Shown: positions 14,974 to 24,335 of the stretch, piece by piece
Position numbering within the stretch: the first letter of the stretch is position 1
Layout: each line of letters begins with the position of its first letter
Origin: Segatella hominis
Lineage (GTDB): Bacteria > Bacteroidota > Bacteroidia > Bacteroidales > Bacteroidaceae
Assembly: GCF_019249725.2 (NCBI RefSeq)
Contig: NZ_CP137559.1
Coordinates: forward strand, 2,979,001 to 3,043,000
Direction: 5' to 3'
DNA: 64,000 bases
Translations under genes and position numbers: made by a program
Notes under the pieces: generated by a model
What the model was told of the DNA's origin: nothing
Seen by the model: only the letters and a program-made list of their open reading frames with translations
Database searches by the model: none

Positions 14974-16084
14974 TTATTCTATCACCCATTCCAAGGTGCT
15001 TATTTTTTCCTTAATTGTATAGTTGATACCTACTTTCACCACAGGTTTGTTTTGCAGGGCGAAGGCATCGGCATATCGCTTGTCGTTGATTTGCTGAAGA
15101 GCTTCTTCTGCCGTCTTATTGAACTTCAGTTCCATGATGTAGATGGTGTCGTGCGTCTCCATCGTAATGTCTGTTCTTCCCTTGGCAGTATGTTGCTCTA
15201 CGAGAATGCGGAAATTGGTGAGCAAGGCAAACATGATGTACATCATCTGTTGATAATGCCCCTCGTAGTTGGTATTATCGCAGTAAGGCACAGTCTCAAG
15301 GAAAGTCTTGAATAACAGTAGTGCTTCGTCCAATTGTCCCAGGTTGATCAGCTTGGACATCTTGGCGATGGTCGTGTTGCCCATAACCGTCTTGGAAGCC
15401 AGGTAGTGAGGGAGAAGACTTCTGTATAGGCCGACTCTGATTTCCTTGTTAGGAAGGGCGAGGGTGTATAGTTCGGTGTCCTCATCGTAATCCTTGATGG
15501 TGAAGTATCCACTCTGGTAGAGCAAAGGCATGATGGTGGTCATCGTCTCTGTAGCAGCATCAAAGTCATCCTTGCCTGCTTCCATCTTTTCGCCAAGGTC
15601 GATAGGGGTGAAAGCATACTTGCGCATCATATTCGTCGATTAATACCACAGGTTGTTTGCCTGTTTTTTCATATACGGTTTGTATGAGGTTGAGCATACG
15701 TATGTTCGGGGCTGGAGAGTCACATGTTATGCCAAACTTCTCTTCATTGGTCTTTAGTATGAAGAGAAGATAGTGCTCCAACTGCTCTTTTTCCATGTGC
15801 TTGCCTCCAGCCAAACTGAAGTGGAGCACAGGATATTCATTCCATTCTTTCTCCAACTTTTCGATGGCAAGACCATTGAATAGATCCTTTTTACCTTCAA
15901 AATAGCTTTCGAAGGTAGATACAAGGAGTGACTTGCCGAAACGGCGTGGTCGGCTCAAGAAGAAATATGTACCATCAGTATGGGTCATACGATAGATGTA
16001 TTCCGTCTTGTCAACATAGAACCAATCTTCTTTGCGGATTCGTTCGAAAGTCTGTATGCCTATAGGATATCGTTTTCTTGCCAT
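14974..16084 (-). pseudogene. AAA-ATPase/PD-(D/E)XK protein with internal deletion
   Basis: Compared with the intact relative at 22764-24335, the N-terminal part (MARKRYPIGIQTFERIRKED, FLSRPRRFGKS, VVLIDEYDA) and the C-terminal part (LLYQSGYFTIKDYD, TDITMETHDTIYIMELKFNK) are present. They sit in different frames. About 170 codons between EYDA and the middle of the protein are missing, at about 15630-15650. The deletion removes the ATPase sensor region and shifts the frame. The nuclease-like motif (D...E-L-K) is still readable. The promoter at 16109-16140 is intact. Confidence 0.85.
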
Positions 16085-16359: not shown

Positions 16360-16443
16360 CGTTCAGCGTCTTTGAATGTCCGTTCAACGACGTTGAACCG
16401 CCGTTCAAAGACGCTGAACGGACATTTAACGTCGTTGAACGGA
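16360..16443. repeat. Interleaved inverted repeats (A-B-A'-B')
   Basis: Arm A (16360-16376, CGTTCAGCGTCTTTGAA) pairs with A' (16404-16420). Arm B (16379-16394, TCCGTTCAACGACGTT) pairs with B' (16428-16443). Both pairings are perfect. Because the arms interleave, the two stems can only form together as a pseudoknot. Arm B also holds most of a self-palindrome (GTTCAACG-A-CGTTGAAC, 16382-16398). Confidence 0.8.
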
Positions 16444-17069
16444 ACTTTCTTCTAAGGGCATATACTTTTTATTCGGTTTAATGGTTTTAGTTGTGTGGTT
16501 TAACGGTTTTAGTTGACCACTCTCAACATTATTTTTAATATGAGTTGACTCGGTTGTTACTTAGTTATAATTTACGTTGACTTACTATTTCTTGTCTGGA
16601 TGGATTTATCGTGTCCACTTTGGGGAGTTGCTACAACTGAAAGTGTTAAATCTTGGAAAAACGGACAAAATGCCTCCGTTTTATATTAGATAAACGGACA
16701 AAGATATGATTACACGCCCTACTTTTAACTAAATTTAAAGTACTTCTTACAAGGTGCTATCGCAATGCATCCTATCCCCCTTACCCCTGCATCATAGGAA
16801 AGTTTCATGCTTTACAATGACGAAGATGAACCAGCGGAAAATCGAACTGTAATCGTAATCAGTAATTAACTCACGCCAGTGAAATGACGAAGGGGTAGAA
16901 AAGGGGCAAAAGCGATTTATCACAAAAACACAAAGTAAAGTACCGCAAAAACACAAAGTAAAAACTAAACTTAGGGGAAACAACAGTCATTCAAGGAATG
17001 AATTAAGAGACTAAAACAAGTTTAATCTTAAATATCCGTAAAAAAATTACGGCATATTGGATTTTTATA
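16444..17069. other. Gene-free stretch with short direct repeats
   Basis: I see no credible gene here. It holds a 19-bp direct repeat (GGTTTAATGGTTTTAGTTG at 16475-16493, one mismatch at 16497-16515). A 17-bp exact direct repeat (CAAAAACACAAAGTAAA) lies at 16923-16939 and 16946-16962. A small CCGTAA/TTACGG hairpin lies just before the promoter at 17070. Confidence 0.5.
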
Positions 17070-17078
17070 TATCTTTGC
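17070..17078 (+). promoter_or_regulatory. -7 element of the ATPase/TOPRIM pair
   Basis: TATCTTTGC lies 85 bases before the ATG at 17164. No clear -33 element is seen. Confidence 0.5.
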
Positions 17079-17163
17079 AAAAAAGAACTGCATACAGCAA
17101 TCAAAGAACTTTCATTTGCACTCGCCTGCAGTAACATTTCGTTTATATTTTAACAAAGATATT

Positions 17164-18264
17164 ATGTTAGTAAAATTTGCCGTTACGAATTATAGAGGAT
17201 TTGCCAATCGCATAGAATGGGACTTGTCGGAACCAAGTAACTATTCGTTCAACACATTTGCCATAAAAGACGGAATCATCAAGAATGGCATCGTGTATGG
17301 ACCTAACGGTTCTGGCAAGTCGAACTTTGCATTGGCTATCTTCGATATCACAAATCATCTTTCCCAGAAGTGGAAAAGAGCGAACTATTATGACAACTTC
17401 ACTTATACGGGAAAGTTGAACTTCCCTGTAGATTTTGAGTACACCTTCCTGTTGGGAGATGATCTGTTGCAGTATTCTTATAGCAAATCACCAGAGGGAA
17501 AATTAGAGGCAGAGAAACTTGTGGTGAACAACAAGCTGATATTCTGCAACAAGGATTCTATCCTGACATTGGATGAAGAAGAATTTCAGATGGAAGCAAC
17601 CGTGAAGACCAACTTAGCCAACAACGCCAACAACGTATCCATTATCAATTTTCTTCTCACCTCCTACCCATTAGCAAAAGAGCATTATCTCCTTAAATTA
17701 CAGAAGTTTGTCAACTCCATGTTGTGGTTCCGAAGCGTGGAGAAGAATGAATTCATGGGCTTAGCTACAGCTCCAGCAAACCTTGACGAATATATCATCA
17801 AAAATCATCTGACAGACGACTTTGAGGATTTCATCCATCGTGTAAGCGGACAAGACTTTGAGTTTCAGAAGCCGAATGATGACGACAAAGAACTGTATTG
17901 CATATTCGGCTTAGGTCGCATTCCATTTGATAAGATTGCATCAACAGGCACCCACTCGCTGATGTTGCTCTATTATTGGCTCAAGCAGATGAAAGATGCA
18001 TCATTCGTTTTCATTGATGAATTTGACGCATTCTATCACTTCAAGCTTTCCTTCGAGGTTTGCAAGACACTTTTTTCCCTTCCATGCCAAGCTTTCACGT
18101 CATCCCACAACACTTACCTGATGACCAATGACTTACTGCGCCCAGACTGCAATTTCATCTTGCAAGACAACAAGATCAAACCATTGAGCAGCTGCACCCA
18201 GAAGGAACTGAGGTTCGGCCATAATATAGAAAAAATGTTTAGAGGTAACGCTTTTGAAGTATGA
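17164..18264 (+). CDS. AAA/ABC-type ATPase of an OLD/RloA-like pair
   Basis: The 366-residue ATPase is of the AAA_21/RecF-like kind. Walker A is YGPNGSGKSNF (46-53 core). Walker B-like FVFIDEFDAFYH (281-292) is followed by a switch segment AFTSSHNTYLMTN. There is no long coiled coil. The N-terminus LVKFAVTNYRGF is the usual first strand of the family, so ATG 17164 is preferred over an upstream TTG (17116). Its stop overlaps the TOPRIM-like gene in an ATGA, as in coupled two-gene modules. Proteins of this type are the ATPase halves of OLD, PARIS (AriA) and RloA/RloB systems. A defence role is inferred. Confidence 0.8.
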   Translation: MLVKFAVTNYRGFANRIEWDLSEPSNYSFNTFAIKDGIIKNGIVYGPNGSGKSNFALAIFDITNHLSQKWKRANYYDNFTYTGKLNFPVDFEYTFLLGDDLLQYSYSKSPEGKLEAEKLVVNNKLIFCNKDSILTLDEEEFQMEATVKTNLANNANNVSIINFLLTSYPLAKEHYLLKLQKFVNSMLWFRSVEKNEFMGLATAPANLDEYIIKNHLTDDFEDFIHRVSGQDFEFQKPNDDDKELYCIFGLGRIPFDKIASTGTHSLMLLYYWLKQMKDASFVFIDEFDAFYHFKLSFEVCKTLFSLPCQAFTSSHNTYLMTNDLLRPDCNFILQDNKIKPLSSCTQKELRFGHNIEKMFRGNAFEV

Positions 18265-19028
18265 TATTATTTGTTTTTGAAGGAGTAAAACGTGAGCCGG
18301 ATTTATTCCGCACCATCCAACGATTGTACTTTTCCAACCGGGAAGAGCAGATAGTTTGTTCCTACAACAACAATATCTATCAGCTTTACAAGGATTTGCA
18401 GGAGTACGATGGAGATGGAGATATCGTGTCTTTACTGATGGAAAAGTTTGCCTCTCAAAAAGACAATCCTCTAAAAGGCATAGATAGATCTGCCGACATT
18501 TCCGAAATCTATCTTTTCTTCGATTATGATTTCCACAACAGGAATTTATCACTCGAAGAAATCAACAGACAGGTAAAAGAGATGTTAGAAACGTTTAATA
18601 ATGAAACAGAATACGGAAAGCTCTATATTGATTATCCGATGGTAGAATCTATCCGCTATACCAAGTTTTTGCCGGATGCAAACTATTGGACCTATACGAT
18701 ATCCCGTACTGATTGCAGCAGGTTTAAGGGATTATCAGCAGAATTCTCAGCCTATCAAAGTTTCGATTTTATCCTTCTGACAGAGAATCGGGAACCTACA
18801 GAAGATGAAATAGAGGAAGTCAAGCAGAACTGGGTATATTTGAAGGAGCAGAACGTGAGCAAAGCAAACTATCTTTGCAATGGTGAGAACAGAATACCAG
18901 GATCAAAGGACGACATTCTTCAGGACAAGATATTCGATTCACAAATAGAGAAATATGTGAATACCGAGGAATGCAAAGTGGCAGTACTCAATGCTTTCCC
19001 GCTATTCATATATGATTACTTCAAGTAA
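18261..19028 (+). CDS. TOPRIM-like partner protein (RloB/AriB/OLD nuclease-like)
   Basis: The 255-residue protein begins MILFVFEGVKREPDLFRTI, placing a Glu (E7) at the end of the first strand. Then IYLFFDYDFHNRN gives a DxD pair (D88, D90), and YPMVESI (about 125-131) supplies another acidic residue. Glu, then DxD, then a P..ES segment is the pattern of TOPRIM domains in RloB and AriB (DUF4435) proteins. I cannot name the exact family. It is translationally coupled to the ATPase gene, and a terminator follows, so the pair is a self-contained unit. A metal-dependent nuclease activity is inferred. Confidence 0.65.
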   Translation: MILFVFEGVKREPDLFRTIQRLYFSNREEQIVCSYNNNIYQLYKDLQEYDGDGDIVSLLMEKFASQKDNPLKGIDRSADISEIYLFFDYDFHNRNLSLEEINRQVKEMLETFNNETEYGKLYIDYPMVESIRYTKFLPDANYWTYTISRTDCSRFKGLSAEFSAYQSFDFILLTENREPTEDEIEEVKQNWVYLKEQNVSKANYLCNGENRIPGSKDDILQDKIFDSQIEKYVNTEECKVAVLNAFPLFIYDYFK

Positions 19029-19080
19029 GATTAGAATACAAAGTAAAAACTTATTTTGGATAGAAGATTAGCAAAAAATA

Positions 19081-19136
19081 AATGTCCACAACAATTTGTC
19101 AGATTTGATATCAGACAATTGTTGCGGACATTTTCT
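19081..19136 (+). terminator. Terminator of the ATPase/TOPRIM pair
   Basis: AATGTCC-A-CAACAATT (from 19081) pairs with AATTGTTG-C-GGACATT (to about 19132) and is followed by TTTCT. It can also serve the convergent gene at 19158. Confidence 0.7.
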
Positions 19137-19157
19137 ATTAGTTATACGATAAAACTA

Positions 19158-19679
19158 TTATTTGCTCACAATCAGTTTCTTACCATTTACGATATAAATA
19201 CCCTTCTTAACAGTATTCACTCTGCGACCTTGCAAATCGTAAATCTTATCAGAAGAACCATCCATCAAGATGGGCTTAATACCCGTTGTAACAACGTTTA
19301 CTGTTGATTCACTATCACTTGGGTAATATTCATTTTCACCAATATCTGCCAACGTGATGTTCTCTAACTTCAAGGTATAATCACCAATTGCCAATTTATC
19401 ATCAGCCTTCAATGTAATGTTCACTACAGCGCCACTGGTACCCTTTATACTCTTATTGGCAATAGAATATACTATTACACGGAAGCGATTAGACTTAAGC
19501 AAATTGGAACCCAAAGAATGAGTCTTAGTGAAGCGACCTGGAACTATATCTGCCATATACATCTCATTTTCCTCATCATAAGGAACAGTAATACCTTCAG
19601 GGAGTATGAGGTCGAACAGGAAGCTGCAATAATCACCAGTATTATCCATTGTCACATGAGTAAAACTATTAGCTAACAT
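19158..19679 (-). pseudogene. C-terminal fragment of a secreted surface protein
   Basis: This frame encodes about 173 residues without a signal peptide. The middle (GAVVNITLKADDKLAIGDYTL) looks like a cohesin-like beta-sandwich. The end (IYDLQGRRVNTVKKGIYIVN, then GKK and a basic tail) is the C-terminal tail usual on secreted Prevotella proteins. A start at 19679 lies almost on the predicted transcription start (TATCTTTG at 19684-19691), so expression is doubtful. I read it as the surviving end of a larger surface protein; a short cytoplasmic protein would not carry such a tail. Confidence 0.6.
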
Positions 19680-19748
19680 GCAACAAAGATAGCATTTTTC
19701 TTCCAATTTACATTCGCTTTGGCGAGATTTTTTCAGCTCATGGATATT

Positions 19749-20786
19749 TCATTTTTTATTTATTTTAATGTATTTGTTCTTATTTTCTGAAATTACCTTG
19801 ACAATATACAAACCGCTACATAAATCATTTAGATCTATAACTTTAGTTGTATAACATTTTTTTACGAGTGTTCCATTAGCAGAGTAAATTTCAGTTATTA
19901 TTTTTGAGCTGTTGAAACCTTCTAAGATAATTTTATTGTTTTGTATCGAAATTTGACCGTTCATATTTGGTACTACATCAATAGCTGACGTCTGATTACG
20001 TATAGTTTCCAAATAATTTAGAATTTCTGGGTTTTTAATAAGAGAATTAGTAAATATCGTATCTCCGCTACTGCTCCCATATTCATTGCAAGATACGATT
20101 TTATAGAATTCTCCCCAATCTGCATAATTATATTTGATTTCGTAGAAATTTTTACTTTTTTCATTAATATCAACTCCTATGTAAAGCCCCCAATATCCTT
20201 CTTCAGGGAATTCGAACACGTCTAAATTATCTGAAACAAACTGTACTAGTATGCAATCTTTCATCCTGTCAGAAGAAAACTGGATGGTTAGTTCTGCCGA
20301 TGGATAATAGCTACTTAAATCAAAATTAAAGTTGCCTAATATAGATGCATTTTTCTTTTTGGGGCGTGAAGGTAGTACATTCAACCTTAAAGGTAAGCTG
20401 CCTATTATGATGCCATTTTTGTGCAAATCTACTACGCAACTTATATAAACAGAAGAGTCATTGGGGTACTCTATATTTTGACAATCTGAAACAAGATTTA
20501 AACCAGAAAAGAGACTTGGGGTAATTTTAAACGAAAAACTGGTAGCTCCAGTTTTTGATTCCTCACATACAATTTTCTTTCCATTTTTATCATAAACGCT
20601 AAATGCCCAACGACTATTCTCACAAGATCCATTTTGCGCGTGAAAAGTCGGCATTTCACCATCAATAAATACATGAGAGCAATCTACGATTGTTCCGTCC
20701 TGTAAAAGAATTGATGAGTCAATACTTTGTGCTTGAACATTAATAAAAATCAAACTTATGACGAATCCTAATAATATATGTTTCAT
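19749..20786 (-). CDS. Secreted protein with type IX secretion-like C-terminal tail
   Basis: The product has 345 residues: a signal peptide (MKHILLGFVISLIFINVQAQ), a beta-rich body of unknown function with several Cys, and a C-terminal domain of about 75 residues. The latter contains TEIYSANGTLVKKCY, LNDLCSGLYIVKVIS and a lysine-rich end. This matches the type A sorting domain that sends proteins through the type IX system to the cell surface. The body resembles no enzyme I know. The -7 element TATTTTTGC lies at 20857-20865. Confidence 0.7.
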   Translation of the reverse strand: MKHILLGFVISLIFINVQAQSIDSSILLQDGTIVDCSHVFIDGEMPTFHAQNGSCENSRWAFSVYDKNGKKIVCEESKTGATSFSFKITPSLFSGLNLVSDCQNIEYPNDSSVYISCVVDLHKNGIIIGSLPLRLNVLPSRPKKKNASILGNFNFDLSSYYPSAELTIQFSSDRMKDCILVQFVSDNLDVFEFPEEGYWGLYIGVDINEKSKNFYEIKYNYADWGEFYKIVSCNEYGSSSGDTIFTNSLIKNPEILNYLETIRNQTSAIDVVPNMNGQISIQNNKIILEGFNSSKIITEIYSANGTLVKKCYTTKVIDLNDLCSGLYIVKVISENKNKYIKINKK

Positions 20787-22763: not shown

Positions 22764-24335
22764 TTATGCCAGTGCCTCCACTTTCCAATCGTCGATGCTT
22801 CTTCGGTCTTCCGAGAAGTTGATGCCCACCTTATATTTCTTTCTGCTGTCATCGGCGAAGGCTGCGAGATAGTCCTTGCTGTCGATTTGCTCCATCGCTG
22901 CCTCAGCATCCTTCTTGTATTTCAGTTCCAATATATAGACGCTGCGCTTGGTTTTCAGCACCATGTCGATTCTGCCATCAGATGTTGGCACCTCTGGAGT
23001 AACATCACATCCGAGGATTAACAATATGGTGTAGAGCACGGCTTGGTAATGGCGTTCGTTGTTGTTGACCAATGTATATGGGAACTTCTTGTAGAAAGTC
23101 TGGAGATGAGAGAGGAATGCCTCCATATTGTCCTCGGCACTCAGGATGAAGTTTTTTGCCCATGCCATATAGATAGCATCACGGTCGCCCATGCCGTCTG
23201 GGGCATAATAGCGGAAGAGGCTATTGGAGAAGCCCTTGCGCACCTCTTCATTAGGGAAGGCAAGCTTGTATAATTTCGCCAAACGATTGTATGACTTGAT
23301 TGTGAGATAGCCGCTTTGGTATAATACCGGCACAGGGTCAACAATCTTCTCTGTTGGAGTATCGAAGCGGTCGGAGGTTGTCCAAATGTCGTCCAACTGG
23401 AGCATATCGACATTTTTCTCTTGAAGCAGTTCTATCAGGAAGGTAGGAGTACCCGTAGAGAACCAATAGCTATCAAACTCATGGGTCTCTAAGCAATTGA
23501 ACATGCTGTAAGGATTATACATATCGGCACCTTTCCCACTAAAGTGGTAGCCATCGTAATTATATCTCAGCTCAGCTAAGGCCTCCTCATAGTTCATATC
23601 ATTGGCCTGCGCCAATTCCTCTATGTCATCGTGGAAATTTTCCAAGAGCTCTTCCTTGCTGATGCCACAGATAGAACTGTACTTATCCCACATGCTAATA
23701 TTCGTGATATTGTTCAGTTCGCTGAAGATACTCAACTGGCTAAACTTGGAGATTCCTGTTAAAAAGACAAAATGAAGATTGTCCTCTTCTGACTTCAAAG
23801 GGCTGAAGAAGTTGCGCATGATGTCACGTATCTTGTCCTGCAAGTCCTTGTCTTTCATAGAGTCGTGCATCGGCGCATCATATTCATCGATGAGCACAAC
23901 CACATTCCTGTCGGTCTTTTGCTTGGCGGCATTGATGATGCGAATCAATCGGACATTAAAAGCCTCGGTACTAACAGAAGTTATTTGGTATAAATCCTCG
24001 TAAGTTTCAAGAATCTTATCAAGAGTTTCTATCAGGCTTTCCATATTATAGTATTTCCCCTTGCTAAGATCAAGATGGATAACGGGGTGTTTCTCCCAAT
24101 CTTTTTCCAAGGCTTCCAGCTTTAGTCCTTTGAATAGCTCTTTCTTTCCTTCGAAGTAGGCTTGTAGGGTTGTGACAAGGAGTGACTTTCCGAATCGTCG
24201 AGGACGACTCAGAAAGCAATATTTCTTCTCATGCACCAAGTCATAGATTAAGTCGGTCTTATCTACATATACATAATTTCCCTCTATGATATTCTTGAAA
24301 GTCTGTATTCCGAGAGGATATCTTCTACCTTTCAT
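22764..24335 (-). CDS. AAA-ATPase-like/PD-(D/E)XK nuclease superfamily protein, intact
   Basis: The 523-residue protein belongs to a family very common in Bacteroidales, with an N-terminal AAA-ATPase-like domain and a C-terminal PD-(D/E)XK nuclease-like domain (DUF1703). Visible are YPLGIQTFKNI and YVDKTDLI at the start, a Walker A-like SRPRRFGKSLL (about 43-53), Walker B-like NVVVLIDEYDAPMHD, TGISKFSQLSIFSELNN and RYNYDGYHFS. The nuclease motif is DGRIDMVLKTKRSVYILELK near residues 458-480. Their role is unknown. It is the full-length relative of the broken copy at 14974-16084. Confidence 0.85.
   Translation of the reverse strand: MKGRRYPLGIQTFKNIIEGNYVYVDKTDLIYDLVHEKKYCFLSRPRRFGKSLLVTTLQAYFEGKKELFKGLKLEALEKDWEKHPVIHLDLSKGKYYNMESLIETLDKILETYEDLYQITSVSTEAFNVRLIRIINAAKQKTDRNVVVLIDEYDAPMHDSMKDKDLQDKIRDIMRNFFSPLKSEEDNLHFVFLTGISKFSQLSIFSELNNITNISMWDKYSSICGISKEELLENFHDDIEELAQANDMNYEEALAELRYNYDGYHFSGKGADMYNPYSMFNCLETHEFDSYWFSTGTPTFLIELLQEKNVDMLQLDDIWTTSDRFDTPTEKIVDPVPVLYQSGYLTIKSYNRLAKLYKLAFPNEEVRKGFSNSLFRYYAPDGMGDRDAIYMAWAKNFILSAEDNMEAFLSHLQTFYKKFPYTLVNNNERHYQAVLYTILLILGCDVTPEVPTSDGRIDMVLKTKRSVYILELKYKKDAEAAMEQIDSKDYLAAFADDSRKKYKVGINFSEDRRSIDDWKVEALA

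Follow-up and report, generated by a model that had tools for sequence, protein, structure and literature searches.

How is the toxic effector of an ATPase-Toprim defence pair kept at a safe level in the cell that carries it? Such pairs are widespread, and the control that holds their effectors in check is little understood. The question is raised here by a two-gene unit of the gut bacterium Segatella hominis (contig NZ_CP137559.1), which lies at positions 17,164 to 19,028 of the window, the whole stretch of 64,000 nucleotides that was analysed, and which an earlier reading of the sequence (the original prediction) had taken for a candidate phage-defence system. The unit consists of an ATPase gene (gene A) and a Toprim-like gene (gene B) that match the candidate defence family PDC-M12, and it is preceded by a 17-bp palindrome, CCGTAA-N5-TTACGG, which does not figure in the original prediction. 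The unit is probably a horizontally mobile abortive-infection module of toxin-antitoxin-like design: A would keep the Toprim nuclease B in check, and the operator of the unit would be bound by A or by the AB complex. The features concerned are the following.

17025..19039, + strand: mobile module, the sole stretch of the window shared with a 20.8-kb Segatella copri locus, L014 (blastn, E ≤ 1e-5, 80% DNA identity)
17036..17052, no strand assigned: palindrome CCGTAA-N5-TTACGG, proposed operator, on the -33/-35 side of the promoter
17070..17077, + strand: TATCTTTG, -7 promoter box fitting the Bacteroidota TAnnTTTG, starting 34 bp after the palindrome start
17164..18264, + strand: gene A, ABC/SMC-type (AAA_21) ATPase, PDC-M12A, proposed sensor/antitoxin, 366 aa
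18261..18264, + strand: ATGA stop/start overlap of A and B (4 nt long in 72 of 78 genome loci)
18261..19028, + strand: gene B, Toprim-like protein, PDC-M12B, proposed nuclease effector (E7, D88xD90, E129, K201), 255 aa
about 19080..19134, + strand: terminator-like hairpin 3' of the operon (RNA fold -26.6 kcal/mol, z -5.1)

The palindrome was scored by its 12 arm bases in the 200 bp upstream of gene A, with spacers of 3 to 7 permitted, at 83 loci including the window; the underlying genome scan gave 361 pattern matches and 300 relatives, and the best 80 of these 300 loci were used. All 12 arm bases matched in 65 regions, 11 in 13, 10 in two and 7-9 in three. At least 11 arm bases were thus present in 78 of the 83 regions, with a spacer of 5 in every one of the 78, whereas none of 1660 dinucleotide shuffles reached this score, nor did any of 729 regions upstream of the other genes at these loci. 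After clustering of A at 90, 80 and 70% identity, the palindrome was kept in 56/59, 41/44 and 28/30 cases, respectively. Loci without A (L019, L060), without upstream DNA (L045) or with A cut by a contig end (L065, L084, L090) were excluded from the count, as were L015 and its duplicates L001, L004, L006 and L007, whose contig begins within 20 bases of gene A.

The site was seen in Bacteroidota, Spirochaetota, Fusobacteriota and Pseudomonadota, although many loci come from metagenome-assembled genomes and single taxon assignments may be wrong. A profile search with B yielded eight Spirochaetota loci, all with a perfect palindrome; about five of them are new and independent (L304 and L306 are the already counted L049 and L093, and L301 is almost the same as L302). 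Perfect copies were also present in a Vibrio phage (L300) and an Acinetobacter plasmid (L298), whereas the Fusobacterium copy matched 11 of 12 arm bases and the 4-kb enterobacterial plasmids examined (L009, L010, L299) matched 10 of 12 each. Some of these records have peculiarities of their own. Nearly all genes of the 24.8-kb plasmid L298 are listed twice at a constant offset, like a dimer or an assembly artefact, and the Fusobacterium 'plasmid' record (L012; 2.1 Mb, one annotated feature) is probably a chromosome. The viral contig L248 (around 503-600) holds the start of A and, upstream of it, a perfect palindrome whose arms extend to 20 bp around CCGTAA-N5-TTACGG. L029 has no palindrome upstream of A, yet its sequence from the promoter box onward is like that of the palindrome-bearing L030, L032 and L033.

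Regarding its position, TAnnTTTG is the promoter box consensus of the Bacteroidota, and it begins 30-36 bp past the palindrome start in 64 of the 78 regions with a good palindrome. The box lies at 18 or 24 bp in two further regions and is not found in range in the remaining 12, which include non-Bacteroidota. In Bacteroidota the right palindrome arm coincides with the -33 element, and in Vibrio phage L008 16 bp separate this arm from TATAGT (TTACGG-16-TATAGT). This geometry places the palindrome in promoter DNA and not in the mRNA, overlapping or abutting the -33/-35 region. A repressor site is the simplest reading of such a position, and activation through the palindrome is possible in some Spirochaetota. 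It was also considered whether the unit is an ordinary ATPase-Toprim abortive-infection pair, with the palindrome bound by a host regulator or being just a promoter or UP element. The L008 arrangement, in which the right arm takes the place of the -35 hexamer, fits this explanation, but both arms carry 1.6-2.0 bits around a fixed 5-bp spacer of nearly only A/T, the flanks are near noise (40 sequences preselected for a good match), and a single site extends across four phyla. Together with the chance level of other exact genomic copies, described next, this makes it unlikely.

Exact copies occurred in 56 of 392 phylum genomes as against about 84 of 392 for a reversed control pattern (hand count); they are no commoner than the control, and a genome-wide regulon was rejected. 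Among 30 loci taken from this exact-copy scan, L119 alone sits at the pair. Viral contigs with the 14-base form of the palindrome numbered at least 120, and the pair was seen in L248 only, within the DNA stretch examined per contig. Of the 18 carrier genomes examined, 17 carry an exact palindrome at the pair, and in 14 of them it is the sole genomic copy; three have 1-3 further exact copies, and L088, with an 11-of-12 form, has none. There was no exact palindrome elsewhere in the 1.2 Mb of loci scanned.

The related RloAB pairs served for comparison. None of 23 upstream regions in a first sample (best score 8; many only 41-150 bp long) and none of 25 in a second (best score 10) reached 11 of 12 bases. 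Short palindromes near the start (perfect 6-bp arms with a spacer of 3, 5 or 7) were in excess in the first sample (7/23 vs 34/563 control genes, p 5e-4); the claim of operators in all RloAB pairs was dropped because the second sample did not repeat the excess (2/25, p 0.46). In three RloAB loci (L172, L174, L332), which may form one sub-group, the TAnnTTTG box is closely followed by TTGTAA-N5-TTACAA, which shares its core, GTAA-N5-TTAC, with the palindrome of the pair. Among the papers listed in searches for autoregulation, operators or palindromes of Toprim/ATPase or PARIS systems, none mentioned such a site in its title or the beginning of its abstract, with bioRxiv and most subscription papers outside the search. 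As far as these searches show, a strictly conserved, family-specific operator-like site of the pair appears to be new. The 17-bp site, found in four phyla and among the compared families in PDC-M12 only, suggests that ATPase-Toprim pairs may share the wiring of toxin-antitoxin modules. A guess from motifs thereby becomes a proposal of autoregulation that can be tested, and the site could be used as a marker for finding intact modules.

What moves with the palindrome is indicated by the L014 comparison, in which homology to the window starts 11 bp before the palindrome. Judged from this alignment, the moving unit is the promoter region plus the two genes. On these grounds, the palindrome could serve the recombination or insertion of the mobile module and have no regulatory role, and the sequence upstream of the promoter box in L029 does differ from that of its relatives. 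A site of this kind is, however, extremely improbable here: it has no counterpart at the other end (none of 80 regions downstream of B reaches 11 of 12 bases), the offset to the promoter box is held at 30-36 bp in 64 of 78 regions, and the module has no recombinase.

The anatomy of the operon is largely as the original prediction had it. Gene A starts at ATG 17164 and encodes an ATPase with the Walker A motif GPNGSGKS (residues 46-53) and the Walker B motif FVFIDEFD (residues 281-288); P-loop residues G46, N48, G49, G51 and K52, the signature-like S260, G262 and T263, and D285, E286, D288 and H315 are invariant in 32 aligned relatives. The ATGA overlap was likewise confirmed and probably couples the translation of B to that of A. 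E7, D88, D90 and E129 of B, which had been read as a Toprim-like order, do not vary among 27 aligned, diverse members (30-76% identical to window B) and are therefore not chance motifs; E7 follows strand 2-6, and D88xD90 closes strand 82-88, which agrees with the Toprim pattern of a Glu behind the first strand and DxD behind the third. The promoter element expected for the unit exists in TATCTTTG, and the strong terminator in the 3' hairpin, which none of 200 shuffles matched in folding and which a simple consensus scan for terminators missed. An Rfam scan of 16400-19800 at gathering thresholds gave no match, and PDB sequence searches with B alone or with its profile gave no credible match. 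Among the relatives of B, P0104 (302 aa) is listed with an additional PF03693 domain, and in the nearest genome compared B is split over two reading frames.

The original prediction could place the Toprim partner in no named family, which no longer holds. In a PADLOC comparison A matched PDC-M12A (E 2.6e-132) and B matched PDC-M12B (1.5e-75), full length, adjacent and in the same order, and all 27 diverse B proteins matched all five M12B models. By these matches the pair is a member of PDC-M12, an already catalogued candidate defence family (PDC presumably standing for 'phage defence candidate'), from which no difference was found; the name PDC-M12 was not found in the literature searched. Lower-ranked matches of A were AbiLi (2.5e-33) and AriA (1.3e-14). 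Pfam assigned AAA_21 to A, and B had only a sub-threshold match to RloB (PF13707; 16.1 bits vs a cut-off of 31.5). Seven of the 27 B relatives match RloB at E ≤ 0.1 (best 4.8e-4), and six of 27 match AbiLii (best 3.2e-5). When the profile of B was compared with 12 RloB proteins, the EGxKxEP and DxD regions aligned (E 5e-5, probability 67). On profile evidence B is remotely related to RloB and AbiLii rather than to AriB, and it can be placed because of this relation and the PDC-M12B match.

The suggestion of a split OLD-like or PARIS-like unit accordingly stands as regards an ATPase-Toprim pair of a candidate defence family, and fails as regards membership in either system. PARIS shares the AAA_21 ATPase with a separate Toprim effector and likely the sensing-and-release logic, but window B has no DUF4435 match (Pfam, E ≤ 1), on which ground membership was rejected, and A fits M12A far better than AriA. 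OLD, Gabija GajA and HEC-04 (IbfA) likewise join an ABC ATPase to a Toprim domain, with the catalytic residue order of B as in Bp OLD; these are single fused polypeptides in the accessible parts of the sources (for IbfA/HEC-04, PMC12111858, a relative in kind only), and OLD membership was rejected for two open reading frames (ORFs) overlapping by 4 nt. RloA/RloB resembles the pair in gene order, in the EGxKTEP and DxD motifs and in remote B homology, whereas window B stays below the RloB cut-off and none of the 48 RloAB upstream regions (many <200 bp) has the palindrome at 11 of 12. AbiL resembles it through the AbiLi match of A and the AbiLii matches of some B relatives, whereas window B itself has none at E ≤ 1. 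The kinship of B with Toprim enzymes also bears on the possibility that B itself recognises or cuts the palindrome, and that self-nicking rather than occupancy regulates the operon. GajA is described as a sequence-specific nicking enzyme in the accessible part of its source, but a carrier that kept such a site in its promoter would harm itself unless B were always restrained, and we regard the idea as very unlikely.

The preferred reading, a restrained effector with autoregulation, draws on the layout and the precedents. The operon has the proposed restrainer first, the proposed effector second, overlapping genes and a palindrome in the promoter; by sequence its layout matches that of type II toxin-antitoxin modules, from which it differs in that the presumed antitoxin A is an ABC ATPase without a recognised DNA-binding Pfam domain. 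PMC10440598 reports that an AAA ATPase neutralises a Toprim_OLD toxin of the RloB node, and it assigns the part of toxic effector in AbiL to AbiLii; according to PMC12409363, the Toprim tRNase AriB is sequestered by AriA and released once AriA senses phage proteins. Because of this layout and these RloB-node, AbiL and PARIS precedents, it is proposed that A, with its ABC/SMC-head ATPase, would hold B inactive and sense infection in an ATP-dependent manner. Released B, a putative two-metal Toprim nuclease, would cut host nucleic acid and stop translation; its substrate would most likely be RNA, with tRNA as the best guess by analogy to AriB. A or the A-B complex would bind CCGTAA-N5-TTACGG at the -33/-35 side and keep expression low. 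That A, B or their complex is the likely binder follows from the two proteins and the site being all that the compared carriers share. If true, a family in which no DNA-binding domain is recognised would contain a protein that binds DNA sequence-specifically. A bolder and doubtful version has the ABC ATPase or the ATPase-Toprim complex act as a sequence-specific autorepressor without a helix-turn-helix, whose operator-bound form takes part in sensing phage, so that its stripping from DNA by phage products such as DNA mimics would both unleash the nuclease and induce the pair.

The pair is patchy, strictly paired and horizontally mobile. It was found in 3 of 60 relatives, 2 of 392 phylum genomes and 8 of 247 Spirochaetota, and the universal conservation of a housekeeping locus, which the original prediction had named as the contrary case, was not seen. 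A lies directly upstream of B in 78 of 80 loci, the other two contigs beginning at or just before B. A Treponema A (L049) is 65% identical to window A, closer than several Bacteroidota copies (about 54%), and transfer between phyla is therefore indicated. Among 72,556 plasmid records, the 14 with A are also the 14 with B; 10 of these are enterobacterial plasmids of 4.0-4.4 kb, and in 7 of 5,426 E. coli genomes at least 80% of the plasmid region is present at a single location. Likewise, A and B share the same 3 of 50,697 phage records, all Vibrio filamentous phages; A is annotated as Paris_II__AAA_21 in the two records opened. With window B as query, 10 stretches of viral contigs matched the pattern, and none encodes a relative. 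The layout, and the carriage on very small plasmids, would also fit a chromosomal toxin-antitoxin pair that serves stress responses or maintenance and plays no part against phages. Such a pair is nevertheless quite unlikely, given the patchiness in chromosomes, the abortive-infection systems that are the closest characterised relatives, and the cargo position in Vibrio filamentous phages. According to the accessible part of PMC11630473, Vibrio filamentous/tailless prophages have a variable locus enriched in defence genes, and the pair presumably sits there.

Regarding the surroundings, where the original prediction noted pseudogenes, an AAA-ATPase_like/PDDEXK_9 gene is split into two ORFs at 14974-16084, with a full-length paralogue at 22764-24335. 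An empty-site search with the window flanks returned only short or repeated pieces, in 10 of 60 and 28 of 60 genus genomes, and no empty site. Neighbourhoods of the pair were sampled as ORFs of 100-900 aa (274 nearby and 205 distant candidates, 140 and 145 drawn at random, the first 70 of each used). Among the PADLOC matches listed, type I methyltransferases account for 3 of the 70 nearby ORFs and mad2 for 4 of the 70, and defence genes are found among the 70 distant ORFs as well. A 114-bp stretch upstream of the window pair (16753-16866) recurs downstream of the pair in L015 (2024-2137) with 91% identity and in the same orientation.
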